Shown piece by piece: positions 467-45,363 of a stretch of 64,000 nucleotides of DNA (its first letter is position 1; every line of letters starts with the position of its first letter). The DNA comes from Paenibacillus ginsengihumi DSM 21568 (GTDB lineage Bacteria; Bacillota; Bacilli; Paenibacillales; NBRC-103111): positions 1 to 64,000 of the forward strand of contig NZ_KB905550.1 in assembly GCF_000380965.1 (NCBI RefSeq), read 5' to 3'. The notes under the pieces are model-generated. The model was not told the DNA's origin, did no database searches, and saw nothing but the letters and a program-made list of their open reading frames with translations. A program made the position numbers and the translations under genes.

Positions 467-3400
467 ATGGCTTTTCGATTTGTGCTGGGAAGAGCGGGGA
501 GCGGGAAGACGGACTATTGTCTGCAAGCGATCAAGAACGAGCTGCTCATGCGCCCGGAAGGCTCGCCGCTGATCTGGCTTGTGCCGGAGCAGGCGACGTT
601 TCAGGCGGAGTATGCGCTCATCTCTTCGCCGGAGCTGGGGGGGACGCTCAGAGCCCAGGCGCTCAGCTTTCGCCGGCTGGCGTGGAGGGTGATGCAGGAG
701 ACGGGCGGGACAGCCCGGCTGCCGATCGACGAAACCGGCAAGAAGCTGCTCATTCACCGGATCATACATAAAAACCGCGAGAAGCTGCGTCTGTTCGGAG
801 CCTCGGCAGAGCAGATGGGCTTTCTCGATCATGTCAATCAGCTGTTCAGCGAATGGAAGAGATACTGCGTCACGGCGGAGGAGCTTGCCGCTTTGGCGGG
901 AGAGCAGAGCCGCAGGCTGCCGATATCCGGGCCGTTGGGCGACAAACTGCACGATCTGCGCGTCGTATATCTTGATTTTGAGCAGGAGCTGTCCCGGCTC
1001 TATTTGGACGGGGAAGATTATTTGACGCTGCTGGCCGGTCAAATCGAGCATTCCGCATATGTGCGCGATGCGGATATTTGGATCGACGGCTTTCATGGCT
1101 TTACCCCCCAGGAATTCGCCGTGCTGGACAAGCTGTCCCGGTTCAGCCGCAGCGTCACCATGACTCTCTGCCTGGATCGGGAATACGGGGCGGGCGAGGA
1201 GCTGCATGAGCTCGATTTGTTTCATCCTGCGGCGCGGACGATGAAGCGGATGGATCAGCTGCTTGCCGAGGCCGGGGTAGAACGGCTGCCGACGGTCGAG
1301 CTGAACGCCGATCCGCTGGCAAGGTTCCGCGACAATCCGGCGCTCGCTCATCTGGAGCGGGAATGGGGGCGCAGGGTGAAGAGACCTTACCCAGGCGATG
1401 CCGAAGACGGCTCGGCTCCCCTGCGCGGCGTTCATTTGACGGCTGCCGCGAATCGCCGGGCGGAAGTGGAGGCTGCCGCTCGCGACATACTCCGGCTCGT
1501 CCGCGACGAAGGGCTGCGGTGGCGGGATGTCGCCATATCCGTGCGCAACATCGAGGCGTACGGCGATTTGCTGGCCGTGACGTTCGTGGAATACGGCATC
1601 CCCCACTTTTTCGATCAGAAGCGCTCCGTATTGGGCCATCCGCTGATCGAGCTGATTCGCTCGGCGCTGGAGACGGTCTGTGGACAGTGGTCCTACGATG
1701 CCGTGTTCCGCTGCGTGAAAACGGACTTTTTCCTCCCGATCGGAAAGGAAGAGGCTGACGGGGACGTAAGGATCGATCGGCATGCGATGGATCAGCTGGA
1801 GAACTATGTGCTCGCCTTCGGCATTCGAGGCTCCAAATGGACAGAGCGCGACGATTGGCATTACACGTATCAATCCGATCTGGAGAGCGCGGAAGAAGCG
1901 GGGGCGGCCGCGGACTCCTTATGGCTGCGAACGATCAACGCCTGCCGGCGCCGGGTTGCGGCGCCGCTGCACAAGCTGCAGCAAAGCCTCGGCGCAAGCC
2001 GGCGAATCCGCGACAAGACGGAAGCGGTGTACGCGCTGCTGACCGAGCTGAACGTCCCGGAGCGGCTGGAAGCGTGGAGCCGGGAGGCGCTTCAGATGGG
2101 CCGGCCGGAGAAAGCGCGCGAGCATGCCCAGGTATGGGAACGGGTCGTCGACGTGTTCGATCAGCTCGTCGAGCTGATGGGCGAGGAGACGGCGTCGAAC
2201 GACGTGTTCGCCCGCCTCGTGGGTACGGGTCTCGAAAGCATCAAGCTCGGTCTCGTGCCGCCGACGCTCGATCAAGTGCTGATCGGGAGCATGGACCGCA
2301 CCCGCGCGGGGCAGGTGAAGCATTTGTTCGTGCTCGGCGTGAACGACGGCGTTCTGCCCGCGAAGATAAAGGAAAGCGGCGTGCTGACCGAGCAGGAGCG
2401 GGAGCAGCTTGCCGCGGCAGGAATGCCGCTGGCCGAAGGGGCGAAGCGCAGGCTGCTGGACGAGTCGTTCCTGATGTACTGCGCCTTCTGCACGCCGCAG
2501 GAAGGGCTGTGGCTGAGCTATGCTTTGGCCGACGAGGAAGGCAAGTCGCTGCTGCCTTCCGACGTCATCCGCCAGATGAAGCGGATGTTTCCGAAGGTGC
2601 GCGAAAGATTCGCGCTCGGGGAACCTTCGCCGGAGTCGGCGCTGACCGAGCAGATGGAATATGTCGCCAGCCCGGACAAGGCGCTTTCTCATCTGATTGT
2701 TCGCCTGAAGCAGTGGATGAAGGGGACGCCGATGAACGGCGTCTGGTGGTCGGTGTACAACTGGTACGCCCGCCAGCCCGAGCTGGCCGGCACGCTGTCT
2801 GTACTGCTGAAGTCGCTGACCTATGCGAACGCCGAGGCTCCGCTGCGGCGGGAAACGAGCCTGCTGCTGTACGGGGATACGCTGGAGGCCAGCGTGTCGC
2901 GCATGGAGCGGTTCGTCTCGTGCCCGTTCTCGCAGTTCGTCTCGCACGGCTTGCGGCTGAAGGAGCGGCGCATATTCCGGCTGGACGCGCCCGATATCGG
3001 CCAGCTGTTCCACGCCGCGCTCAAGTCGTTCATGGACGACCTCGAGCGGGACGGGGCCGACTGGGGGGCGCTGTCGCCGCAGGAGTGCGAGCAGCGGGCC
3101 GCGTATGTGATCGACCGGCTGGCGCCGCGGCTACAGGGGGAAATTTTGCTCAGCTCCAAGCGTTACGGCTACATTGCCCGCAAGCTGAAGCAGGTGATCG
3201 GCAAGGCGGCGGCGATGCTCGGCGTGCATGCCCGCCGCGGGGCGTTCCGGCCGATCGGGCTCGAGGTCGCTTTCGGCAAGGGGCAGCCGATACCGGCGAT
3301 GGCTTACCGGCTCGACAACGGCGTGCGCATGGAGCTGCGCGGCCGCATCGACCGGATCGACCGGGCGGATACGGAAGAGGGAACATGGCTGCGCATCATC

Positions 3401-4150
3401 GATTACAAGTCGAGTGCGAAGCCGCTCGATTTGACCGAGGTGTATTACGGCCTGTCGCTGCAAATGCTCGCGTATCTGGACGTCGTGCTGACGCATGCTC
3501 CGGTCTGGCTCGGGAAGGAAGCGCAGCCGGCGGGCGTGCTTTACTTCCACGTACATAACCCGGTGTTGGGCGGGAAAAACCGGCTGACTCCCGAAGAGGC
3601 GGACGCCGAGCTGAAAAAAAAATTCAAGATGAAGGGGCTGCTCGTGGCTAATCCCGGCATTGTGCAGCTGATGGACAGCGGCCTGGCCGACGCCGGCGGG
3701 CGCTCGGAGCTGCTGCCTGTCGCGATCAAGGCCGACGGCAGCTTCTACAAGACGTCATCCGTAGCGAGCGAGGCGCAGTGGAACACGATTCGCCGTTACG
3801 TCAGGCGCACGATCCGCGAGATCGGCACGTCCATGACGGAAGGGCGGATTGACATCGCGCCGTTCCGGATTGGCCAGGAGACGGCCTGCGACCGCTGCGC
3901 CTTCCGGCCGGTGTGCCAATTCGACACGCAGCTGGACGGCAACGCCTACAAGCTGCTGCCTTCGCTGGGCAAGGAGGAAGTGTGGGCGATGATGGAGCAG
4001 AAGACCGCCGGCGCGGAGCAGGGCATCATTCTGCCGCGCGAGGCGATTGGCGCGGCCGCCGATCCGCTCGCCGCGCTGCGCGCCGAAGCGCCGGAACGAG
4101 CAGGATCGGGCGGACAGCGTAAAGCCGCGAAAGGAGGAGACGGCCTGTGA
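467..4150 (+). CDS. addB: ATP-dependent helicase/nuclease subunit AddB
   Basis: AddB is one subunit of the AddAB helicase-nuclease that resects double-strand breaks and loads recombination machinery, the Gram-positive counterpart of RecBCD. The 1227-residue protein begins with a nucleotide-binding loop (GRAGSGKT, about residues 8-15). The C-terminal third has a PD-(D/E)XK nuclease core (IIDYKSS near residue 978). It also has the iron-sulfur cysteines: one in SCPFSQF (near 825) and a cluster CDRCAFRPVC near 1142. Length is slightly above the usual ~1160-1200. The ATG at 467 follows a GGAGTGAG ribosome binding site. The stop overlaps the addA start by four bases, so the two subunits are translationally coupled. 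In B. subtilis sbcDC follows addBA; here a glycosidase does. Confidence 0.97.
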   Translation: MAFRFVLGRAGSGKTDYCLQAIKNELLMRPEGSPLIWLVPEQATFQAEYALISSPELGGTLRAQALSFRRLAWRVMQETGGTARLPIDETGKKLLIHRIIHKNREKLRLFGASAEQMGFLDHVNQLFSEWKRYCVTAEELAALAGEQSRRLPISGPLGDKLHDLRVVYLDFEQELSRLYLDGEDYLTLLAGQIEHSAYVRDADIWIDGFHGFTPQEFAVLDKLSRFSRSVTMTLCLDREYGAGEELHELDLFHPAARTMKRMDQLLAEAGVERLPTVELNADPLARFRDNPALAHLEREWGRRVKRPYPGDAEDGSAPLRGVHLTAAANRRAEVEAAARDILRLVRDEGLRWRDVAISVRNIEAYGDLLAVTFVEYGIPHFFDQKRSVLGHPLIELIRSALETVCGQWSYDAVFRCVKTDFFLPIGKEEADGDVRIDRHAMDQLENYVLAFGIRGSKWTERDDWHYTYQSDLESAEEAGAAADSLWLRTINACRRRVAAPLHKLQQSLGASRRIRDKTEAVYALLTELNVPERLEAWSREALQMGRPEKAREHAQVWERVVDVFDQLVELMGEETASNDVFARLVGTGLESIKLGLVPPTLDQVLIGSMDRTRAGQVKHLFVLGVNDGVLPAKIKESGVLTEQEREQLAAAGMPLAEGAKRRLLDESFLMYCAFCTPQEGLWLSYALADEEGKSLLPSDVIRQMKRMFPKVRERFALGEPSPESALTEQMEYVASPDKALSHLIVRLKQWMKGTPMNGVWWSVYNWYARQPELAGTLSVLLKSLTYANAEAPLRRETSLLLYGDTLEASVSRMERFVSCPFSQFVSHGLRLKERRIFRLDAPDIGQLFHAALKSFMDDLERDGADWGALSPQECEQRAAYVIDRLAPRLQGEILLSSKRYGYIARKLKQVIGKAAAMLGVHARRGAFRPIGLEVAFGKGQPIPAMAYRLDNGVRMELRGRIDRIDRADTEEGTWLRIIDYKSSAKPLDLTEVYYGLSLQMLAYLDVVLTHAPVWLGKEAQPAGVLYFHVHNPVLGGKNRLTPEEADAELKKKFKMKGLLVANPGIVQLMDSGLADAGGRSELLPVAIKADGSFYKTSSVASEAQWNTIRRYVRRTIREIGTSMTEGRIDIAPFRIGQETACDRCAFRPVCQFDTQLDGNAYKLLPSLGKEEVWAMMEQKTAGAEQGIILPREAIGAAADPLAALRAEAPERAGSGGQRKAAKGGDGL

Positions 4151-7100
4151 GCGAACGGATACCGAAACCTGAAGGCGTGACATGGACTGACGAGCAGTGG
4201 GAGGCGATCGCTGTGCGCGGCTGCTCGTCGCTCGTTGCGGCGGCGGCCGGATCGGGCAAGACGGCTGTGCTGGTGGAGCGCATTATTCGGCGCATCTCCG
4301 ATCCGGCCGATCCGCTCGACGTGGACCGGCTGCTCGTCGCCACCTTCACCAACGCGGCCGCGGCGGAGATGCGCCACCGGATCGCGGAAGGGCTGGAGAA
4401 GGCGCTGGCCGCGGACCCGGCGTCCGACCATTTGCGCCGCCAGCTGGCGCTGCTGCCGCGGGCGTCGATTACGACGCTGCACTCCTTTTGCCTGGAAGTG
4501 GTCGAGCGGCATGCGCAAAAGATCGGGCTCGATCCGGGCTTTCGCATCGCCAATGAAACGGAAATCGCGCTGCTTCGCCAGGAGGTGCTGGAGGAGCTGT
4601 TCGAGGAGGAGTACGGGGCCGAGGGCGAAACGGGCGGCTTCTGGCGGCTGGCGGACATGTTCAGCGGCGACAAAAACGACGACGCCTTGTTCGCCCTGGT
4701 TCAGCGCGTATACGACTTCAGCCGCAGCCACCCTTGGCCCCGGCTGTGGCTGCGCGAGGCGGCCGAGGCGTTCGCCCGCGGGCTGACGGAGGACGATCCG
4801 TGGACCCCGCAGCTGCGCCGCCATCTCGAGCTGACGCTGGAGGGCGTCAAGGCGCTGCTTGCGGACGCGCTTCGTCTGACCGGTCTTCCCGGCGGACCGG
4901 AGCCTTATGCCGCGACGCTGGAGGACGATTTGCAGACGATCGCCTATTTGCAGGAGAGGTGCGGGGCAGGAACGTGGGAGCAATTGTACCACGCGTTTCA
5001 AGGAGCCGGCTTCGGCAAGCTGAAGGCATGCCGAGGCGATCAATACGACAAGGAGCTGCAGGAGAAGGTGAAGGAGCTCCGCAGCGACGCCAAGGATAAG
5101 CTCGCCGCCCTGAAGGAGGAGCTGTTCGGCCGGACGGCGGAGCAGTTCGACGAAGAGCTTAAAGCGATGGCGCCGCTGATGGACGCGCTGGTTAAGCTCG
5201 TCGAGACGTTCGACTGCAAGTTTCGCGAAGTGAAGCGGGACAAGCGGCTGGTCGATTTCGCCGATCTCGAGCATTATTGCCTGCACATTTTGCGTGTGGA
5301 AGGCGAAGAGTCGGGGCGGCTTGTTCCTTCCGCCGAGGCGCTGGAATACCGCGAGCAGTTCGCCGAGGTGCTGCTCGACGAGTACCAGGATACGAACCGC
5401 GTGCAGGAGGCGATCGTTGCGCTCATTTCCCGCTCGTCGCCTGGCAACCGGTTCATGGTCGGCGATGTGAAGCAGAGCATCTATCGCTTTCGGCTGGCCG
5501 AACCGACCCTGTTTCAGGAGAAATACAAAGCGTTCGTGCCGGGAGGCGGCGAACCGGGAGCGAGGATCGATCTGGCCCGCAACTTCCGCAGCCGCAGGCA
5601 GGTGACCGACGGAACGAACTTTATTTTTCGGCAGGTGATGCGGGAAAAAGTCGGCGAGATCGATTACGATGGGCAGGCGGAGCTCGTTTTCGGGGCCGCA
5701 TACTATCCCGAGGATGCCGGAGACGAACGAAGATGGGCGCCTGAGCTGATTGTGATCGACCGCTCGTCTGCCGATTCCGATTCGGAAGCAGAGCCGCGCG
5801 CGGTCGAAGCGGGGGAGGGCCGGGAAGACGAGACCTCCGGGTTCGATCCCGCGGCGGAGCTGAAGGAGCTGGAGACGGCGCAGCTGGAGGCGCGGCTCAT
5901 CGCGGCGCGGATTCGCGAGCTGACCGGCATGGACGGCGGGCGCCGCTTTCAGGTATTCGATAAGGACGCCAAAGGGATGAGAGATATCGCCTTCCGCGAT
6001 ATCGTCATTTTGCTGCGCGCCACTCAGCAGTGGGCTCCGGTGCTGATCGAGGAGCTGAAGCGGGTCGGCATTCCCGCGTACGCGGAGCTTAGCACCGGCT
6101 ACTTCGAGGCGATCGAGGTGCAGGTGATGCTGTCGCTGCTGAAGCTGATCGACAACCCGTATCAGGACATTCCGCTGGCGGGGGTGTTGCGCTCGCCGAT
6201 TGTGGGGTGCAGCGCGGAGGAGCTGGCGCTTATTCGGTCGGCCAGCCCTGGCGGCGCCTACTACGATGCGGTGAGGAAGTTCGTCCGGGCCGGAGCGGAG
6301 AAAGACAGCGACTTGCAGGCCGACGGCCACTCGAAGTCCGACGGCAACCTGCGGGCCGACGGCAGCCCGCAGAGCGGCGGTCGCCCGCAGGCCGACGATT
6401 CGCATACCGGTGGCGGGCCGGAAGGCGATAGCGGACTACTAGCTGCCGCAGGGCCGGAGGCAGAGGTTGGCCTGGCAGCGGCAGAGGGGAGCGGGGCACC
6501 GGCGGAGCAGGATGGAGCTTTAGCGGCGAGCGACAGCCCGGGGCAAACCGGCGCGCCGGTAACCGTGGCCATTCCGGCTGAGACGGCCGCCCGGGACGAC
6601 GCGCACGGCTTGCTGCGCGCCAAGCTGCGCCGCTTCCTCGAGCAGCTGAAGCTGTGGCGCATGGAGGCGCGTCAAGGCTCGTTGGCCGAACTGATCTGGC
6701 GTATTTACCGGACGACGGGTTACTTCGATTTCGTCGGCGGATTGCCCGGCGGCATTCAGCGGCAAGCCAACCTGCGCGCTCTGTATGACCGCGCCCGGCA
6801 GTACGAAGCGACGTCATTCCGCGGGCTGTTCCGCTTCCTGCGCTTTGTGGAGCGGATGCAAGACAGCGGCGGCGACCTCGGCACCGCGCGGGCGCTCGGG
6901 GAGCAGGAGGACGTCGTGCGCATCATGACCATTCATAAGAGCAAAGGGCTGGAATTTCCCGTCGTCTTCGCGGCCGGTCTGGCCAAATCGTTCAACCGCC
7001 GCGATTTGACGGCGTCCTTCCTGCTGCACAGGGAGCTCGGCTTCGGCCCTAAATTGCTCGAGGCCGATACCCGCGTCAGCTACCCTACGCTGCCGTGGCT

Positions 7101-8412
7101 GGCGATTCGCCGCAAAATCGAGCTGGAGACGCTGGCCGAAGAAATGCGGGTGCTCTATGTCGCGCTGACCCGGGCCCGGGAGAAGCTGTATTTGATCGCG
7201 ACCGTCAAAGATGCCGGCCGGCAGTTTTCCGCCTGGGAGCGGTTCGCGAATCATGAGGGGCCCGCCCTGCCCGACGATGCAATCGCGGCCGCAAAATGCT
7301 ACCTCGATTGGATCGGCCCCGCGCTCGTGCGCCATCCCGAAGGCCAGCCGCTGCGGGCTGCCGGCGGCATGGCGGCAGGCGGACTGCGGCTGGCGGCAGG
7401 CGATCCTTCCATATGGACGGTGCGCATCGTCCGCCCGGAGCAGTTCGCCGCCTTGAGCGAAGCGGCCGCTGCCGGCGATGCGCTGGACGAGCGGCTGCAG
7501 TCGGTGCTGCGGCTGGAGCCGGTGGACGAGACCGAGCGCTGGGAGCATGAGATATGGCGCAGGCTGTCCTGGACGTATCCGTACGAGGCGGCATCCGGCA
7601 TGCTGTCCAAAACGTCCGTCACCGAGCTGAAACGGCTGTCCGAGCATCACAAGCTGATGGCTTCGCTGTCGGAGGGAGGCGATGCCGACCTGGCGCTGCC
7701 GGAAGGCGGGCTGCTGCTGCCCGGGGGTCTGAAACTGGCCGGATCGCCGGCACAGCCGAAGGCGCGGGAAGGCGTTGCCGCTGCCGGGGGCGGTTCCAAT
7801 TCCGCGCCAGGGCAATCCGGGCCGGCGAAGGCCGCTGCGGAGTACCGCCCGGCGATCGTGCGCCGGCCGCGGTTCCTGGAGCAGCGGAAGATGACGGCAG
7901 CCGAGCGGGGCACCGTCTTCCACTCGGTCATGCAGCATATTCCGCTCGATCCGCCTCCTACGGAGGAGACCGTACACGCGACGCTTCAGCGGATGGTCGA
8001 GCGGGAGCTGCTGACAGAGGAGCAACAGGATGCCGTGGATGCGGCTGCGATCGCCGCGTTCTTCCGCACGGAGCTGGGGCTTCGCCTCGTCGGAGCGCGC
8101 CAGGTGCGCCGGGAGGTGCCTTTCAGCTTCGGCTTGCCCGCATCCGATGTTTACGGATTGCGGGCAGGACCGGAAACCGTCGATGTCATCATGCTGCAGG
8201 GCGTCATCGACTGCGTGTTCGAGGAAGAGAGCGGGCTGGTGCTGCTCGACTATAAGACCGATCAGCTGAAAGGCCGCTCCCCGCAATCGATCGCCGAAGG
8301 CTATCGGCTCCAGCTGGAGCTGTACGCCCGGGCGGTCGAACGGATCTGGAAGCGCCCTGTCATCGGCAAATTCATTTATTTGTTCGACGGTTCGCATATC
8401 GTCGAGCTGTGA
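4147..8412 (+). CDS. addA: ATP-dependent helicase/nuclease subunit AddA
   Basis: AddA is the UvrD/Rep-type 3'-5' helicase subunit of AddAB and carries a second nuclease domain. Walker A (AAAAGSGKTAVL) lies near residues 31-42, the DEYQDT Walker B near 410, the helicase motif IMTIHKSKGLEFPVVFAAG near 925, and the C-terminal nuclease motif LLDYKTDQ near 1366. The GTG start at 4147 overlaps the addB stop (GTGA). At 1421 residues it is clearly longer than the usual ~1230-1250. The excess is mainly a Gly/Asp/Ala/Pro-rich, semi-repetitive stretch at about residues 716-817 (bases 6298-6600). Smaller low-complexity inserts sit near 540-570 and 1190-1235. All catalytic motifs are intact and the frame is continuous, so the inserts are probably flexible surface loops. 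Confidence 0.97.
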   Translation: MSERIPKPEGVTWTDEQWEAIAVRGCSSLVAAAAGSGKTAVLVERIIRRISDPADPLDVDRLLVATFTNAAAAEMRHRIAEGLEKALAADPASDHLRRQLALLPRASITTLHSFCLEVVERHAQKIGLDPGFRIANETEIALLRQEVLEELFEEEYGAEGETGGFWRLADMFSGDKNDDALFALVQRVYDFSRSHPWPRLWLREAAEAFARGLTEDDPWTPQLRRHLELTLEGVKALLADALRLTGLPGGPEPYAATLEDDLQTIAYLQERCGAGTWEQLYHAFQGAGFGKLKACRGDQYDKELQEKVKELRSDAKDKLAALKEELFGRTAEQFDEELKAMAPLMDALVKLVETFDCKFREVKRDKRLVDFADLEHYCLHILRVEGEESGRLVPSAEALEYREQFAEVLLDEYQDTNRVQEAIVALISRSSPGNRFMVGDVKQSIYRFRLAEPTLFQEKYKAFVPGGGEPGARIDLARNFRSRRQVTDGTNFIFRQVMREKVGEIDYDGQAELVFGAAYYPEDAGDERRWAPELIVIDRSSADSDSEAEPRAVEAGEGREDETSGFDPAAELKELETAQLEARLIAARIRELTGMDGGRRFQVFDKDAKGMRDIAFRDIVILLRATQQWAPVLIEELKRVGIPAYAELSTGYFEAIEVQVMLSLLKLIDNPYQDIPLAGVLRSPIVGCSAEELALIRSASPGGAYYDAVRKFVRAGAEKDSDLQADGHSKSDGNLRADGSPQSGGRPQADDSHTGGGPEGDSGLLAAAGPEAEVGLAAAEGSGAPAEQDGALAASDSPGQTGAPVTVAIPAETAARDDAHGLLRAKLRRFLEQLKLWRMEARQGSLAELIWRIYRTTGYFDFVGGLPGGIQRQANLRALYDRARQYEATSFRGLFRFLRFVERMQDSGGDLGTARALGEQEDVVRIMTIHKSKGLEFPVVFAAGLAKSFNRRDLTASFLLHRELGFGPKLLEADTRVSYPTLPWLAIRRKIELETLAEEMRVLYVALTRAREKLYLIATVKDAGRQFSAWERFANHEGPALPDDAIAAAKCYLDWIGPALVRHPEGQPLRAAGGMAAGGLRLAAGDPSIWTVRIVRPEQFAALSEAAAAGDALDERLQSVLRLEPVDETERWEHEIWRRLSWTYPYEAASGMLSKTSVTELKRLSEHHKLMASLSEGGDADLALPEGGLLLPGGLKLAGSPAQPKAREGVAAAGGGSNSAPGQSGPAKAAAEYRPAIVRRPRFLEQRKMTAAERGTVFHSVMQHIPLDPPPTEETVHATLQRMVERELLTEEQQDAVDAAAIAAFFRTELGLRLVGARQVRREVPFSFGLPASDVYGLRAGPETVDVIMLQGVIDCVFEEESGLVLLDYKTDQLKGRSPQSIAEGYRLQLELYARAVERIWKRPVIGKFIYLFDGSHIVEL

Positions 8413-8504
8413 CTTGGCATACTTGTCCGGGCCGCGGCGTATGTACATTATTAAAGAGGAACATGCGGCTTGCTGCGCAGGCCGTTTGCGAGGAGGCAAC
8501 AACG

Positions 8505-10742
8505 TTGAATCACGACATCGGAGCCCGCCCGGCGCAGGGGGGCCGGACTCGTCCGTTTTTCGCGGCCGGCATGGCGCTCAGACGGCTGATCTTATGCGCT
8601 GCCGCGTCGGTCCTCCTGGCGTCGTCCCTTGCGCCGCTGCCAGCGCAGGCCGACGCCATTTGGGACCGCTGGAAGGCGGCGGACGCGGCCGTAGCTGGCG
8701 GAAAACCCGCCGAGGCGGTACCGCATTGGAAATTTCTCGTCGAGCATTATGCCTCCGCCGGCGAATGGGAGAATGCGGCGCTTTTCTCCGGCCGCTTGAA
8801 TCAATATTACGATAGCGTGCGCGACTACGAGCAGGCGATCCATTATTACGAGCTGGAGAACGAATATTGGCTGAAGCTTGGAAAAGACTGGGGCGCAGTC
8901 GATCTGCAGCGGGCCGATCAGCTGCGAACGATCGTGGAGGCTTACATGACCGTAGGCGAGTCGGAGACGCTGCGCCGGCAAGCCGCCTCGTCGGCGGCGA
9001 AGCTGGCCAAATTCGAGCCGGAGTATGGCCTTTATATCGGCATGTACTCGGAGCTTGATCCGAAGATGGGCAATTACTATACCCGTTCGGAATCGATATA
9101 TGGCAAAAACCACGCCATGTATTTGGCATACACGCAGGTCGGCAAGCCGTTTCCGCGGCAGCATGCGGCCAGGGCCAAGGAGGCCGTCGCCGCGCTGCAA
9201 ATCGGCTGGGAGCCGGAAGGCGGCCTCGAGGCCGTGACTGAAGAGGTCGTTACGGCATGGGCCAAGGAAGCGAAGGCCGCAGGCATCCCGATCTTTCTGC
9301 GCTACGCCAGCGAAATGAACGGAGCATGGGTCGTATGGCACGGCGATCCGGCGCTATATATCGAAAAGTTCCGTCTAGTTCACGATATTATGGAGCGGGA
9401 AGCGCCGAACGTCGCCATGGTGTGGAGTCCGGGGGACGTTCCGATGTATTCGATCGACGCCTATTATCCGGGCGACGAATACGTCGATTGGGTAGGGGTC
9501 AGTATGTACACGTCGCCTTACGAGAACGGCGACCCGGCGCAGGGCAGCATGCTCGCCACGTCGCCTGTCGAAAGGCTCGATTATTTGTACAAGACCTATG
9601 CCGATCGCAAGCCCTTGATGATCAGCGAAACGGCCGTCTCGCACCGGGCGAATATGACCGGCGAGTCGTTCGCGGAGTACGGCCTGATGAACCTTCAGCG
9701 GCTGTACGAGGTGATGCCGGCCAAATATCCGCGGCTGAAGGCGATCACTTATTTTAACGTCAACCTGGAAATGCGGGAATCCAAAAACAATTACTTGCTT
9801 CAGGATAACGAAGAGATGCTTGCGCTCTACAAACGGATGATCGCATCTCCGTTTTATTTGACGAAGGTCGAGCAGGGAGCGCGCCCGCAGGACGGGATCG
9901 GCCATGTGCCGCTCGCTGCCGGGGAGTCGTTCGCGCAATCGACGAAAATTACGCCTTTTGTCAAAATCCCCGAGGTTTATATCGGCAAAATCGAATACCG
10001 CCTCAACGGCAAGCTGCTGGCCGAGCAAACCGAGCTTCCGTACGGCATCGAGCTGCAAGCCGGGGACGTGCCGGAAGGCTCCGTGCTGGAGATCAAGGTG
10101 TTCGATCAAGCGGGCGAGGAAAAAGCGCTCCGCCGCTTCCCGTTATCGTCCCGCGTATCTGTCGAAGTGAACGGAAAGGCGATCGCGTTCGATCAGCCGC
10201 CGATAGTTCAGGATGGCAGCACGCTGGCGCCGCTAAGAGCCGTCTTCGAAGCGATGGGCGCCGAAGTCGAGTGGGATGCCGCGACGAAGACGATCGCCGC
10301 TCGCAAAGGAGAAGCGCAGATTACGCTGCAGATCGGCAGCCGGACGGCATACCGGAACGGCCGGCCCATCGAGCTCGAAGCGCCGGCTCAGCTTGTCGGC
10401 GGCTTTACGATGGTGCCGGCCCGGTTCGTGGGGGAAGCGTTCGGCGGCTCGGTCGAATGGGACGGGCGCAGCCGGACCGTGCGGATCACGCTGCAGGATG
10501 AGGAGGCAAAGCTGCGTTCATCCGCGGCCGGCTCCTCCGCCGCGCCCGCAGGAGCCTCCGCTGTGGCGGAGAGCGAAGCGGCTTCCGCAGCGGAAGCGGA
10601 AGCGCCCGCAACTGCTGCGGGCCAAGCTGCGGGACGCAGCAACCCCGGTTCCATTCCGGAACCGGGGTGGTTTCACCGCCTGCTGACGGCGCTCGCCGCG
10701 TTGGCGCGCGGGCTTGGAGCATGGCTTGCAAAGCTGCTCTGA
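8505..10742 (+). CDS. Secreted GH26-like glycoside hydrolase with CuAO-N-type stalk domain
   Basis: This is probably an exported beta-mannanase-like enzyme. A TTG at 8505 sits 8 bases after a perfect AGGAGG (8491-8496); an ATG at 8572 is the alternative. A signal peptide (LRRLILCAAASVLLASSLA, ending PAQADA) follows. Residues ~50-130 look TPR-like. The central domain resembles GH26, with RYASEMNGAW near 265-274 carrying the presumed acid/base Glu, and MISETAV near 370 the presumed nucleophile. Residues ~552-663 form a copper-amine-oxidase-N-like domain (DGSTLAPLRAVFEAMGAEVEW and a second MVPARFVGEAFGGSVEW half), common in Paenibacillus exported proteins. A Ser/Ala/Glu-rich linker and a hydrophobic tail (residues ~720-745) end the protein. 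An 11-bp perfect hairpin (CCCCGGTTCC arm, ~10643-10667) lies inside the 3' coding end. The exact polysaccharide substrate is not shown. Confidence 0.8.
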   Translation: MNHDIGARPAQGGRTRPFFAAGMALRRLILCAAASVLLASSLAPLPAQADAIWDRWKAADAAVAGGKPAEAVPHWKFLVEHYASAGEWENAALFSGRLNQYYDSVRDYEQAIHYYELENEYWLKLGKDWGAVDLQRADQLRTIVEAYMTVGESETLRRQAASSAAKLAKFEPEYGLYIGMYSELDPKMGNYYTRSESIYGKNHAMYLAYTQVGKPFPRQHAARAKEAVAALQIGWEPEGGLEAVTEEVVTAWAKEAKAAGIPIFLRYASEMNGAWVVWHGDPALYIEKFRLVHDIMEREAPNVAMVWSPGDVPMYSIDAYYPGDEYVDWVGVSMYTSPYENGDPAQGSMLATSPVERLDYLYKTYADRKPLMISETAVSHRANMTGESFAEYGLMNLQRLYEVMPAKYPRLKAITYFNVNLEMRESKNNYLLQDNEEMLALYKRMIASPFYLTKVEQGARPQDGIGHVPLAAGESFAQSTKITPFVKIPEVYIGKIEYRLNGKLLAEQTELPYGIELQAGDVPEGSVLEIKVFDQAGEEKALRRFPLSSRVSVEVNGKAIAFDQPPIVQDGSTLAPLRAVFEAMGAEVEWDAATKTIAARKGEAQITLQIGSRTAYRNGRPIELEAPAQLVGGFTMVPARFVGEAFGGSVEWDGRSRTVRITLQDEEAKLRSSAAGSSAAPAGASAVAESEAASAAEAEAPATAAGQAAGRSNPGSIPEPGWFHRLLTALAALARGLGAWLAKLL

Positions 10743-20553: not shown

Positions 20554-22791
20554 ATGAATAATCGCGTTACTCTTCAAGGCAAATTTCAATATCGCTTGAA
20601 CGGATGGAAATATAGCGCCTTCGTGCGCTTTCTTCTGTTTTTAGTTATTGCCGCCGTTATTTATTTTTCGCTCATGCCGAGAATCGTGCCGCAGACGTAC
20701 GACATTCAGCTTGGCTCCGTCGCCGAGCGGGACATTTTGGCGCCGAAGGCGGTAGAGAACGAGGCCGAGACTTACCGGGCCAAGGAAGAGGCGGCCCAGC
20801 GGGTGCAGCCGGTGTACCAGGTCGTAGCGCTGCGCAACGAATCGGCAATCGACGCCGTCTTCGAGAAGCTGCAGCAAATCAATGCGGATGCGGAAGTATC
20901 CCAGACCGATAAAGTGAACATCTTCAAGACGGTCATTCCGACGATCATTCAGGATCATCTGGACCGCCAGCTAAAAGCATTTACCGACAGCGGGCAGTAC
21001 GGCGAGCTGCTGGTGACCGAAATGCGCAACAATCTTCGCGAGCAGCAGTACCGCATGCCGGAGGAAGTGTATTACAAGATTCCCAGGCTGACCAAGGAAG
21101 ATTTGACGGCCATGGAAGAGGTCGCCAAAGAGATTGTCGGCAAGCTGATGAACGAGCAGATTTTGGACGCCCAGACGGCGCGGACGAAGGTGCCGGAGCT
21201 GGTCAACGCTTCGACGCTGTCCAAGAGCTTGTCCAGGGAGATCGTTCAGGAGCTGATCCGGACGGCGCTGACTCCGAACAAGTTCTACGATCAGAAAGGA
21301 ACGGACGAAGCGAGAGAGCAGGCCCGGGAAAATGTCAAGCCGGTGATGATCAACAAGAACGACGTGCTCGTCGCCAAAGGCGAGCCGATTACGCAGGACG
21401 TCTATAAGCGGCTGGCCGAGCTCAATTTGCTGCGCGACGAGACGAGCTATTGGCCTCATGTCGGCTTGCTTCTCTTCGTGCTGCTCTGCGTCGCCGTGCT
21501 GTTCATCTTCGTGCGCCAAAGCCGCCTGCCGGTCAATCACAACAACGCTCAGCTGCTCATGCTGGCGCTTGTGATCGTCATGACGATCGCCGGCATGAAG
21601 GTATTTTCGCTGGCGCAAAGTCTCGAATATCCGTTTATCGGCTTCCTGGCGCCGACGGCAATGGGAGCGATGCTGATCGCCATCCTGCTCGACATGCATC
21701 TGGCCTACGCGGCGGCGGTGCTGCTCGCTGTCATCGCCAGCGTCGTCTTTAACGTCGATCATACTTACCCGTTCGATTACCGGTACGGAATCGTGGCGCT
21801 GGGCAGCTCATTCGCCGCCATCTTCTCGATTCAGAGAGCCAGCCAGCGCTCGTCGATCCTGCGGGCCGGCATCATGGTTTCCTTGACCGGCATGGCGCTG
21901 ATCGTGTCGCTGCTGCTGATGGAGGAGCTCCCGTCGCGGACGGACATGCTGTTTGCCGCCTCGTTCACGCTCGGCAGCGGAATATTGACCGCAGTCTTCG
22001 TCATCGGGCTGCTGCCGTTTCTGGAGGTGGCCTTCGGCATCCTGTCGCCGCTGAAGCTGGTGGAGCTGTCCAACCCGAACCATCCGCTGCTGCGCAAGCT
22101 GCTGACGGAGACGCCGGGGACGTACCATCACAGCATCATGGTCAGCAACTTGTCCGAAGCCGCCGCCGAGGCGATCGGCGCCGACGGTCTGCTGTGCCGG
22201 GTCGGCGCTTATTATCACGACATGGGCAAGACGAAGCGGCCGAGCTATTTTATCGAAAATCAGAACAACATGGGCAATCCGCACGACCAGATCGATCCGG
22301 CGCTCAGCAAATCGATCATCGTCGCCCACGCCCGGGACGGCGCCGAAATGCTCAAGGAGGCGAACATCCCGAAGCCGATTCGCGATATTGCCGAACAGCA
22401 TCACGGCACGACGCTGCTGCAGTATTTTTACCACAAAGCCCGCAAGCAGGCCGAGGAGCGGGGAGAGGAGCCGCCGGAAGAGCAGGAATTCCGCTATCCC
22501 GGTCCGAAGGCGCAGACGAAGGAAGCGGCTATCGTCGGCATCGCCGACTGCGTCGAGGCTGCCGTTCGCTCCTTGCGCAATCCAACGGTGGAGCAGATCG
22601 ATTCGATGGTGCGCAAAATTATTAAAAGCCGGCTGGACGACGGCCAGTTCAACGAATGCGACCTGACGCTCAAGGAGCTCGACCAGATCGCCAAGACGCT
22701 GAACGAAACGCTGCTCGGCATCTTCCATTCGCGCATCGAATATCCCGGCGACATCGCGGAAGCGAAGCCGAATGCGGCGAAGCGGGCGTAG
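20554..22791 (+). CDS. pgpH: Cyclic di-AMP phosphodiesterase PgpH (7TM-HD family)
   Basis: PgpH degrades c-di-AMP to pApA at the membrane. The 745-residue protein (YqfF) has an N-terminal helix (~22-42), an extracytoplasmic 7TMR-HDED domain (~45-300), seven membrane helices (~305-490) and a cytosolic HD domain (~500-720). HD-domain motifs are visible: TPGTYHHSIMVSNLSEAAAE, YYHDMGKTKRPSYF with the HD pair near 554-555, and IAEQHHGTTLLQYF. It lies 20 bases after phoH and before ybeY, in one long operon. Its product pathway links to the c-di-AMP riboswitch at 43811-43980. Confidence 0.95.
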   Translation: MNNRVTLQGKFQYRLNGWKYSAFVRFLLFLVIAAVIYFSLMPRIVPQTYDIQLGSVAERDILAPKAVENEAETYRAKEEAAQRVQPVYQVVALRNESAIDAVFEKLQQINADAEVSQTDKVNIFKTVIPTIIQDHLDRQLKAFTDSGQYGELLVTEMRNNLREQQYRMPEEVYYKIPRLTKEDLTAMEEVAKEIVGKLMNEQILDAQTARTKVPELVNASTLSKSLSREIVQELIRTALTPNKFYDQKGTDEAREQARENVKPVMINKNDVLVAKGEPITQDVYKRLAELNLLRDETSYWPHVGLLLFVLLCVAVLFIFVRQSRLPVNHNNAQLLMLALVIVMTIAGMKVFSLAQSLEYPFIGFLAPTAMGAMLIAILLDMHLAYAAAVLLAVIASVVFNVDHTYPFDYRYGIVALGSSFAAIFSIQRASQRSSILRAGIMVSLTGMALIVSLLLMEELPSRTDMLFAASFTLGSGILTAVFVIGLLPFLEVAFGILSPLKLVELSNPNHPLLRKLLTETPGTYHHSIMVSNLSEAAAEAIGADGLLCRVGAYYHDMGKTKRPSYFIENQNNMGNPHDQIDPALSKSIIVAHARDGAEMLKEANIPKPIRDIAEQHHGTTLLQYFYHKARKQAEERGEEPPEEQEFRYPGPKAQTKEAAIVGIADCVEAAVRSLRNPTVEQIDSMVRKIIKSRLDDGQFNECDLTLKELDQIAKTLNETLLGIFHSRIEYPGDIAEAKPNAAKRA

Positions 22792-43775: not shown

Positions 43776-43804
43776 TTGACAGGAGCGAAATAATTCGTTA
43801 TATT
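43776..43804 (+). promoter_or_regulatory. Strong promoter of the riboswitch leader
   Basis: TTGACA (43776-43781), a 17-base spacer and TATATT (43799-43804) predict a start near 43811, at the 5' edge of the riboswitch. Confidence 0.88.
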
Positions 43805-43810
43805 AAACAT

Positions 43811-43980
43811 ACGCTTAATTCCCGGTTGCTCGACCGGGAAGCGGGGGAACCATTTTCGGGGCGAATAGGCGCTGTTGGTGCAAGAAGCGTCTTAGGATAC
43901 CATCGATCCGAGTCCGTCAGCTAACCTCGTCAGCAGTGGATGGGTCAAATGCATATCATTCGGTGTGTAAACTTGCTTCC
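43811..43980 (+). promoter_or_regulatory. Cyclic di-AMP riboswitch (ydaO/yuaA type)
   Basis: Conserved ydaO/yuaA blocks occur in order: CGCTTAAT (43812), a CCCGG..CCGGG hairpin, GGGGGAACCATTTTCGGGGC with GAAT (43852-43874), then a variable helix. CCGAGTCCGTCAGCTAACCT (43908-43927) and CGTCAGC follow. This class senses c-di-AMP and usually turns genes for wall hydrolases, potassium transport and osmoprotection off. The downstream terminator begins at 43983, the expression platform. The controlled gene appears to be the KamA-family gene at 44167. Confidence 0.88.
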
Positions 43981-43982
43981 AT

Positions 43983-44009
43983 GAGACCCTGGCTACAGGG
44001 TCTCTTTCT
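43983..44009 (+). terminator. Expression-platform terminator of the c-di-AMP riboswitch
   Basis: A perfect 9-bp stem GAGACCCTG-GCTA-CAGGGTCTC is followed by TTTCT. Confidence 0.88.
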
Positions 44010-44017
44010 AGTCTGTA

Positions 44018-44068
44018 GAGCCCCCACTGCGGTAAGCGTATGCCTGTGACCGCCCGGGGCTCTTTTTG
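44018..44068 (+). terminator. Second terminator in the leader of the KamA gene
   Basis: GAGCCCC (44018-44024) pairs with GGGGCTC (44056-44062), with an inner GCGGT/ACCGC helix, followed by TTTTTG. It lies only 8 bases after the riboswitch terminator, a tandem arrangement. Confidence 0.8.
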
Positions 44069-44166
44069 CTGGCTTTGGCGCCACCGCTCCCCTGAGAGGG
44101 CTGCCCTGCGGCGGCACAGCGCACGACGGCTAGATGAGAGCCGAATTCATTACGGAAAGAGGAGGA

Positions 44167-45312
44167 ATGAATGTGCCGCAGCCGAAGTACATTACGGACA
44201 TTCGAAAAATTGCCGCCCTGCCGGAGAGCGAACGAGAACGTCTGAAAGCGATTACCGAAAAGTTCGTTTTTCGCGTCAACGATTATTACTTGAGCTTGAT
44301 CGACTGGGACGATCCGAACGACCCGATTCGCAAGCTGGTCATCCCGAACGAAGGAGAACTGCAGGAATACGGGCGCTGGGATGCCTCCGACGAAGAGACG
44401 AATTACGTCGTCCCCGGCTGCCAGCACAAGTATGCGACCACCGCGCTGCTGATCGTTTCCGAGGTATGCGGTTCGTACTGCAGATACTGCTTTCGCAAGC
44501 GGTTGTTCCGCAATGACGTCAAGGAAGCGATGGCCGATGTCACCCCGGGCATCGAATACATTGCGAAGCATCCCGAGATCAACAATGTGCTATTGACCGG
44601 CGGAGACAGCCTGATTCTTGCGACAGCCAAGCTGCGCTCGATTATTTCCAGACTGCGCGAGATCGAGCATGTCCAGATTATTCGTCTCGGCTCGAAAATT
44701 CCCGTATTCAACCCGATGCGCATCTACGAGGATCGGGAGCTGCTGGCCATGCTTCGCGAATATTCGAGTGCCGAGAAGCGCATTTACGTGATGGCGCATA
44801 TCAATCATCCGCGCGAAATTACCCCTCAGGCCAGAAAGGCGTTCCAGGCGCTGCACGATGCGGGCGTGATCGTCGTCAACCAGACGCCTGTTCTGAAGGG
44901 CATCAACGACGATCCGGACGTGCTGGCGGAGCTCCTCGACCGTCTGTCCTGGGCTGGCGTGACGCCGTACTATTTCTTCATCAACCGCCCGGTTGCGGGC
45001 AACAGCGATTTCGTCCTTCCTCTCGAACAAGTGTATCGAATCGTGGAGCAGGCCAAGGCACGCACTTCGGGGCTCGGCAAGCGGGTGCGTCTGTCGATGA
45101 GCCATACGTCGGGCAAAATTGAAATTTTGGCTATTGAAAACGGCAAAGCGTATTTGAAATATCACCAGTCGCGGGAAAACCGTTACGGCCAGTTTATGGT
45201 GCTGGACTGCCCGGACGGGGCAGCATGGTTCGACGATTTGCCCGGCAGCGAGCAGTACTGGAGCAAGCCGTCCAAAAAGCTGCAAGCTTCAGGTCATGGC
45301 GTAACGAACTAG
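44167..45312 (+). CDS. KamA-family radical SAM enzyme (lysine 2,3-aminomutase-like), divergent
   Basis: The 381-residue protein has the radical SAM cluster motif CGSYCRYC (Cys101, 105, 108). KamA-family landmarks are YATTALLIVSEVCGSYCRYC, LLTGGDSLI, PVFNPMRI and NHPREITPQARKAFQALHDA. In classical lysine 2,3-aminomutase the PLP lysine sits in a PGGGGK motif near the C-terminus. Here that place reads RLSMSHTSGKIEIL, so the reaction may differ; the Lys in SGK is a candidate PLP ligand. ATG 44167 follows AGAGGAGGA; ATG 44134 upstream lacks a site. The gene is behind the c-di-AMP riboswitch. No beta-lysine acetyltransferase is adjacent. Confidence 0.85.
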   Translation: MNVPQPKYITDIRKIAALPESERERLKAITEKFVFRVNDYYLSLIDWDDPNDPIRKLVIPNEGELQEYGRWDASDEETNYVVPGCQHKYATTALLIVSEVCGSYCRYCFRKRLFRNDVKEAMADVTPGIEYIAKHPEINNVLLTGGDSLILATAKLRSIISRLREIEHVQIIRLGSKIPVFNPMRIYEDRELLAMLREYSSAEKRIYVMAHINHPREITPQARKAFQALHDAGVIVVNQTPVLKGINDDPDVLAELLDRLSWAGVTPYYFFINRPVAGNSDFVLPLEQVYRIVEQAKARTSGLGKRVRLSMSHTSGKIEILAIENGKAYLKYHQSRENRYGQFMVLDCPDGAAWFDDLPGSEQYWSKPSKKLQASGHGVTN

Positions 45313-45334: not shown

Positions 45335-45363
45335 TTGGCGGCTGACTCAAAACGGTGTACAAT
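45335..45363 (+). promoter_or_regulatory. Promoter of the transglycosylase gene
   Basis: TTGGCG (45335-45340), a 17-base spacer and TACAAT (45358-45363). The transglycosylase can therefore be expressed independently of the riboswitch transcript. Confidence 0.75.

Follow-up and report, generated by a model that had tools for sequence, protein, structure and literature searches.

In Bacillus subtilis, the c-di-AMP riboswitches ydaO/kimA and yuaA/ktrA belong to RF00379, a class of OFF switches with a terminator. In Dehalobacter sp. CF, a tandem Na+/c-di-AMP riboswitch is associated with a lysine-2,3-aminomutase gene, and c-di-AMP stops its transcription in vitro; the same study names eam (beta-glutamate) among the genes with Na+ riboswitches (PMC9337991). 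Methanogens and a few bacteria are documented to use beta-glutamate as a compatible solute (PMC1224877). Hence the riboswitch class and its link to osmolytes are already known, as is its occurrence before a lysine-2,3-aminomutase gene (PMC9337991). In the literature searched, we found no gene of this kind with a c-di-AMP riboswitch in Paenibacillus, no mention of the enzyme clade described below as a target, and nothing relevant on tandem terminators in riboswitches or on a double terminator with a repeated arm.

Here we describe a locus in a stretch of 64,000 nucleotides (hereinafter, the window), where an RF00379 element precedes a gene of the KamA family of radical SAM proteins (Table 1). 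In our reading, a ydaO-class OFF switch controls an aminomutase with an acidic substrate and an osmotic role; for this whole account, of which we infer the substrate, the product and the role, we estimate a probability of about 0.5.

Table 1. Positions of the features discussed in the text, in the coordinates of the window.
Feature	Position	Strand	Details
Sigma-A-type promoter TTGACA-17-TATATT	43776..43804	+	11/12 consensus positions
c-di-AMP (ydaO/yuaA) riboswitch aptamer	43802..43950	+	Rfam RF00379, model 1-134, full length
Aptamer loop ACCATC, predicted to form a pseudoknot with GATGG of the 3' tail	43899..43904	+	
GATGGGTC	43939..43946	+	GATGG, pseudoknot completion; GGGTC, predicted antiterminator
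Intrinsic terminator T1	43983..44010	+	Arms 43983-43991 and 43996-44004, then U-rich tail
Second intrinsic terminator T2	44018..44067	+	Outer arms GAGCCCC 44018-44024 and GGGGCTC 44056-44062, then UUUUU
Shine-Dalgarno AGGAGG	44160..44165	+	Sequence; start-site comparison
KamA-family radical SAM gene, 379 aa	44173..45312	+	Open frame begins at ATG 44134
pgpH, predicted c-di-AMP phosphodiesterase	20554..22791	+	PF07697, PF07698, PF01966 (7TMR-HDED, 7TM-7TMR_HD, HD); same window, outside the unit

The riboswitch and its expression platform

The element scores 71.6 bits with RF00379, well above the gathering score of 38 (E = 1.2e-14, Rfam search of the 64-kb window), in agreement with the sequence-only reading, which had called a ydaO-type riboswitch and proposed this very search as a check. 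Judging from these data, it is almost certainly a c-di-AMP-class riboswitch, with ligand binding predicted. Beyond membership in the family, an expression platform is present, consisting of the T1 terminator and a predicted antiterminator that overlaps the aptamer. The ACCATC loop occurs in all 50 of 50 distinct leaders, and GATGGG[TC]C follows downstream of it in 47 of them.

The consensus promoter claimed for the riboswitch itself is also in place (Table 1). Promoter-like sites of the same quality are expected 1.5 times per 5 kb, as estimated by shuffling; of the 26 homologous leaders, 25 have TTGAC at the same place before the aptamer and one has TTGCC. Translation most likely begins at GTG 44173 and not at the upstream ATG, as AGGAGG is situated at a 7-nt spacing from the former, and the orthologs start at that position.

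In the proposed mechanism, the riboswitch would be transcribed from its own promoter, and the one-gene unit would be controlled by transcription termination. At high c-di-AMP, the aptamer would fold, the loop CCATC would pair with the tail GATGG, and the overlapping antiterminator GGGTC would be hidden, so that T1 would form and transcription would stop. Conversely, at low c-di-AMP, GGGTC would be free to capture the GACCC arm of T1, and transcription would continue. The predicted CCATC:GATGG pairing corresponds to the pseudoknot of the c-di-AMP riboswitch class. As it has bases in common with GGGTC:GACCC, the two pairings exclude each other, and hence an OFF switch is predicted, as for the class, from whose known behaviour we infer the direction.

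Two terminators and a repeated arm

The perfect terminator of the sequence-only reading corresponds to T1, whose hairpin (43983-44004) is a perfect 9-bp stem of -18 kcal/mol (z = -5.7). It is followed by T2, a longer hairpin with a folding energy of -23.3 kcal/mol (z = -3.5). With T2 unconditional, the gene would be silent; one therefore has to assume that T2 is regulated, leaks or is bypassed.

An additional GACCC-like arm, at most 45 nt past the U-tract of T1, is present in 38 of 47 leaders, compared with a mean of 9 and a maximum of 17 in shuffled sequences (n = 500). It is mostly situated 14-23 nt past the 3' arm of T1, and in 27 of the 47 leaders it begins a complete T2. For the 41 leaders chosen for having the additional arm, the pairing of the T1 3' arm and U-tract with this arm has a mean energy of -11.9 kcal/mol vs -11.7 kcal/mol with the T1 5' arm (mean z = -3.1, with kinship not fully corrected for). 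Pairing past the 5-bp core extends over 2.83 bp with the leader's own arm and 2.29 bp with the arms of other leaders (p = 0.004; 35 distinct leaders, whose relatedness is not fully corrected for). The cross-pairing is also stronger in leaders that have T2 (mean z of -3.4 vs -2.0, Mann-Whitney p = 0.0006, kinship likewise not fully corrected for).

These pairings would be compatible with a relay: pairing of the T1 5' arm with the antiterminator would release the T1 3' arm, which could then pair with the 5' arm of T2. Across the leader family, such a coupling of terminators through the additional GACCC arm is suggested by the sequences as a possibility that falls somewhat short of an even chance. 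In the window, the cross-pairing (T1b:T2a) has -8.3 kcal/mol vs about -24 kcal/mol for T2, and this segment folds scarcely better than its shuffles. Since the cross-pairing is weak here and T2 is strong, the relay is proposed at the level of the family, and coupled terminators in the window locus are doubtful. With the repeated arms, it can be tested in a simple way whether two terminators in series can be governed by a single aptamer.

Among other leaders, the additional GACCC arm is retained even where T2 is missing (L018, L030, L054, L055, L084). In the L023 leader, the antiterminator and the arms are changed jointly, to GGGGC and GCCCC, respectively.

The enzyme

The protein passes the cut-off of the KamA family TIGR00238 (231.2 vs 199.2 bits). 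It fails those of the AblA/KamA equivalog TIGR03820 (220.8 vs 525.4 bits) and of the Eam equivalog TIGR04368 (236.7 vs 650 bits), as well as the equivalog cut-offs for arginine 2,3-aminomutase and EpmB. In the alignment, the radical SAM motif CxxxCxxC is formed by C99, C103 and C106, and the PLP lysine is K315; the cysteine motif is present in all 75 of 75 orthologs. The AlphaFold model (pLDDT 85, pTM 0.85) matches KamA 2a5h with Z = 34.6 and an rmsd of 2.6 A over 320 residues. By sequence, the gene product is thus assigned to the radical SAM / PLP aminomutases, in an uncharacterised clade of the KamA family. In a tree of smaller size (LG+G4, two long branches flagged), this clade stands apart from KamA and Eam with 100/99 support. 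Eam groups with KamA there, and hence a positive charge or a type of substrate shared by Eam and the window family would be convergent.

From published work, we take Asp293 and Asp330 in KamA, and Lys and Asn in Eam, to be the residues of side-chain recognition. Asp293 corresponds to Arg272 of the window protein in a gap-free alignment, and Asp330 corresponds to Ser308. The two positions are therefore Arg/Ser in the window family, Lys/Asn in Eam and Asp/Asp in true KamA; by pattern match, 72 of 75 orthologs have retained Arg272. The pair Arg/Ser has the residue types expected of Eam, that is, a basic one at 293 and a non-acidic one at 330. One relative (L180) passes the Eam cut-off (720.6 vs 650 bits) and has Lys/Asn. 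The LAM_C domain, found in both KamA and Eam, is absent from the window protein.

Neither a canonical KamA, nor Eam, nor another KamA-family protein above the cut-off was found in the genome, which is 99.7% complete and gave no match to the beta-lysine acetyltransferase ablB (TIGR03827). Given the failed AblA cut-off, the replacement of both aspartates, the missing LAM_C and the lack of a canonical KamA and ablB, the enzyme is very probably not a lysine 2,3-aminomutase. The sequence-only reading had called the gene lysine 2,3-aminomutase-like: its assignment to the KamA family holds, while the lysine part is wrong or unsupported, and so is the link to beta-lysine derivatives, which it had cited as known osmolytes. 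In many Paenibacillaceae, this would correct a likely mis-annotation as lysine 2,3-aminomutase-like, and it points to a substrate that can be tested.

Conservation of the association and genome context

We searched 80 relatives and examined the upstream DNA for every ortholog with readable DNA. Of the 40 ortholog loci that could be assessed, 26, the window and two paralogs at about 50% identity included, have the riboswitch on the strand of the gene, 70-430 nt before it, and the other 14 lack it. Of 80 loci from named genomes, 30 contain the conserved core of the aptamer; all of these belong to Paenibacillus, Cohnella, Thermobacillus, Gorillibacterium or other Paenibacillaceae. No riboswitch was found by Rfam near the gene in 16 orthologs of salt-, alkali- and heat-loving Bacillaceae. 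As 26 of 40 loci are linked and the aptamer core is confined to Paenibacillaceae, the association is old within this family and lineage-specific; as judged from these comparisons, the link between the gene and the riboswitch is conserved, not incidental.

Two divergent paralogs (L055 and L054, 1-3401) lie behind intact c-di-AMP riboswitches and have lost the radical SAM cysteine motif, which is deleted in L055 and shortened to CYCRYC in L054. These could possibly be pseudo-enzymes that are still under riboswitch control.

Outside Paenibacillaceae, many holders of the gene belong to salt- and alkali-loving genera. In salt- or alkali-loving Bacillaceae (L071, L076, L078, L093, L099, L110; 1-5200), the ortholog is divergent from genes of a class-III aminotransferase, an RpiR regulator and a TRAP fused permease, and this block is conserved in about 19 of 80 loci; the aminotransferase and TRAP neighbours could indicate catabolism. 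Another setting is seen in Cohnella and Paenibacillus, where riboswitch-free orthologs (L119, L121, L122; about 2800-9100) occur in a phosphonate-type cluster with a PEP mutase, a TPP-dependent enzyme, a class-V aminotransferase and several YheC/D ATP-grasp proteins. From its gene content, the cluster resembles a pathway of the aminoethylphosphonate type that includes ligases and a KamA-like enzyme.

The genome contains seven c-di-AMP riboswitches, located upstream of ktrA, a LysM-CAP protein gene, two genes of 3D-domain wall proteins, an NlpC/P60 protein gene, a 55-aa frame and the KamA-family gene. The pgpH gene, which the sequence-only reading had placed in the same window, is found there with all three domains (Table 1). 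The genome also encodes three DAC-domain proteins (diadenylate cyclase domain). The riboswitch before ktrB/ktrA (L039, reverse strand, about 466-1366 of the reverse complement) is intact and so is ktrA, while ktrB is interrupted by stop codons and frameshifts, due to decay or an assembly error. The best-scoring c-di-AMP riboswitch of the genome (97.9 bits; L038, 467-887) has a terminator and leads to the 55-aa open frame (MVCKEQLFRMFDSLNETDQKK...), which has no Pfam match.

Substrate, role and alternatives

Because the positive charge at 293 resembles Eam, an acidic beta-amino acid, such as beta-glutamate, is more plausible as a product than beta-lysine. The substrate is predicted from two residues, weakly, and an acidic amino acid has roughly even odds. 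The enzyme would shift the amino group of such an amino acid, at best guess converting glutamate to beta-glutamate, which would serve as an inert anionic osmolyte balancing the K+ taken up by Ktr, itself behind a c-di-AMP riboswitch in this genome. A product made in one step also fits a one-gene unit better than N-acetyl-beta-lysine, as the latter needs ablB. The osmotic role suggested in the sequence-only reading stays reasonable, and stays a suggestion, with ktrA being a riboswitch target too, beta-glutamate a documented osmolyte and many holders of the gene outside Paenibacillaceae being salt- and alkali-loving; the orthologs of salt-loving Bacillaceae that have no riboswitch count against it. 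Beta-glutamate made as an osmolyte is a tentative proposal, less likely than not. If it is the product, a single class of RNA sensors would place K+ uptake and the making of its counter-anion under c-di-AMP control.

There are three other possible variants. The family and the fold of KamA, as well as the published c-di-AMP riboswitch on a lysine-2,3-aminomutase gene (PMC9337991), would suit a true lysine 2,3-aminomutase whose product, beta-lysine or N-acetyl-beta-lysine, would be an osmolyte controlled by c-di-AMP, as in Dehalobacter. The AblA score, Arg and Ser in place of D293 and D330, the missing LAM_C and the failure to find ablB make this very improbable. Alternatively, the enzyme might act on another amino acid or small acid in wall, spore or natural-product chemistry, and its control by c-di-AMP would be a part of wall homeostasis. 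Wall proteins are indeed most of the other riboswitch targets in the genome, some riboswitch-free relatives stand beside YheC/D ATP-grasp, PEP mutase, TPP-dependent and class-V aminotransferase genes, and the next gene in the window encodes a lytic transglycosylase. However, the copies that bear the riboswitch have no conserved neighbours of that kind, and the transglycosylase gene has its own promoter-like site at 45335; we consider this variant a serious minority option.

Finally, given two strong terminators between the promoter and the gene, the riboswitch might mainly yield a terminated small RNA, while a separate promoter past T2 would serve the gene. But no promoter-like site was found from 44067 to the gene, and the order promoter-aptamer-terminator-gene is kept in 26 loci, so this is highly improbable. 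Control of the KamA-family gene by the riboswitch through termination is, in turn, very likely. The strongest form of our account, in which a single aptamer opens or closes both terminators via the arm relay and the gene represents a new class of aminomutases making beta-glutamate as an inert K+ counter-ion directly under c-di-AMP, seems unlikely to hold in all its parts.

Comparison with known systems

As in Dehalobacter, a c-di-AMP aptamer and then a terminator precede a KamA-family aminomutase gene, the antiterminator is built of aptamer nucleotides, and an osmotic logic is proposed. In contrast to Dehalobacter, no Na+ aptamer was found by Rfam in the window, two terminators follow one aptamer, and the gene comes from a different clade without the lysine-recognition residues. 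With ydaO/kimA and yuaA/ktrA of B. subtilis, the locus shares the aptamer family, and ktrA is a target in this genome as well; the target in the window, however, is a radical SAM aminomutase-like gene, and the GATGGGTC tail and the second GACCC arm mark its group of leaders.

The enzyme has the fold, the cysteine motif, the PLP lysine and the conserved core of KamA (PDB 2a5h), but it is 34% identical to it over the aligned residues, fails the AblA cut-off and has both lysine-recognition aspartates replaced. Eam (TIGR04368) differs from the window protein in having Lys/Asn and not Arg/Ser, and the latter has a shorter C-terminus without LAM_C and belongs to a separate clade. At the same time, both have the KamA fold, the radical SAM and PLP motifs and a basic residue replacing D293, and both would share a one-step route to an osmolyte, which for the window enzyme is predicted.
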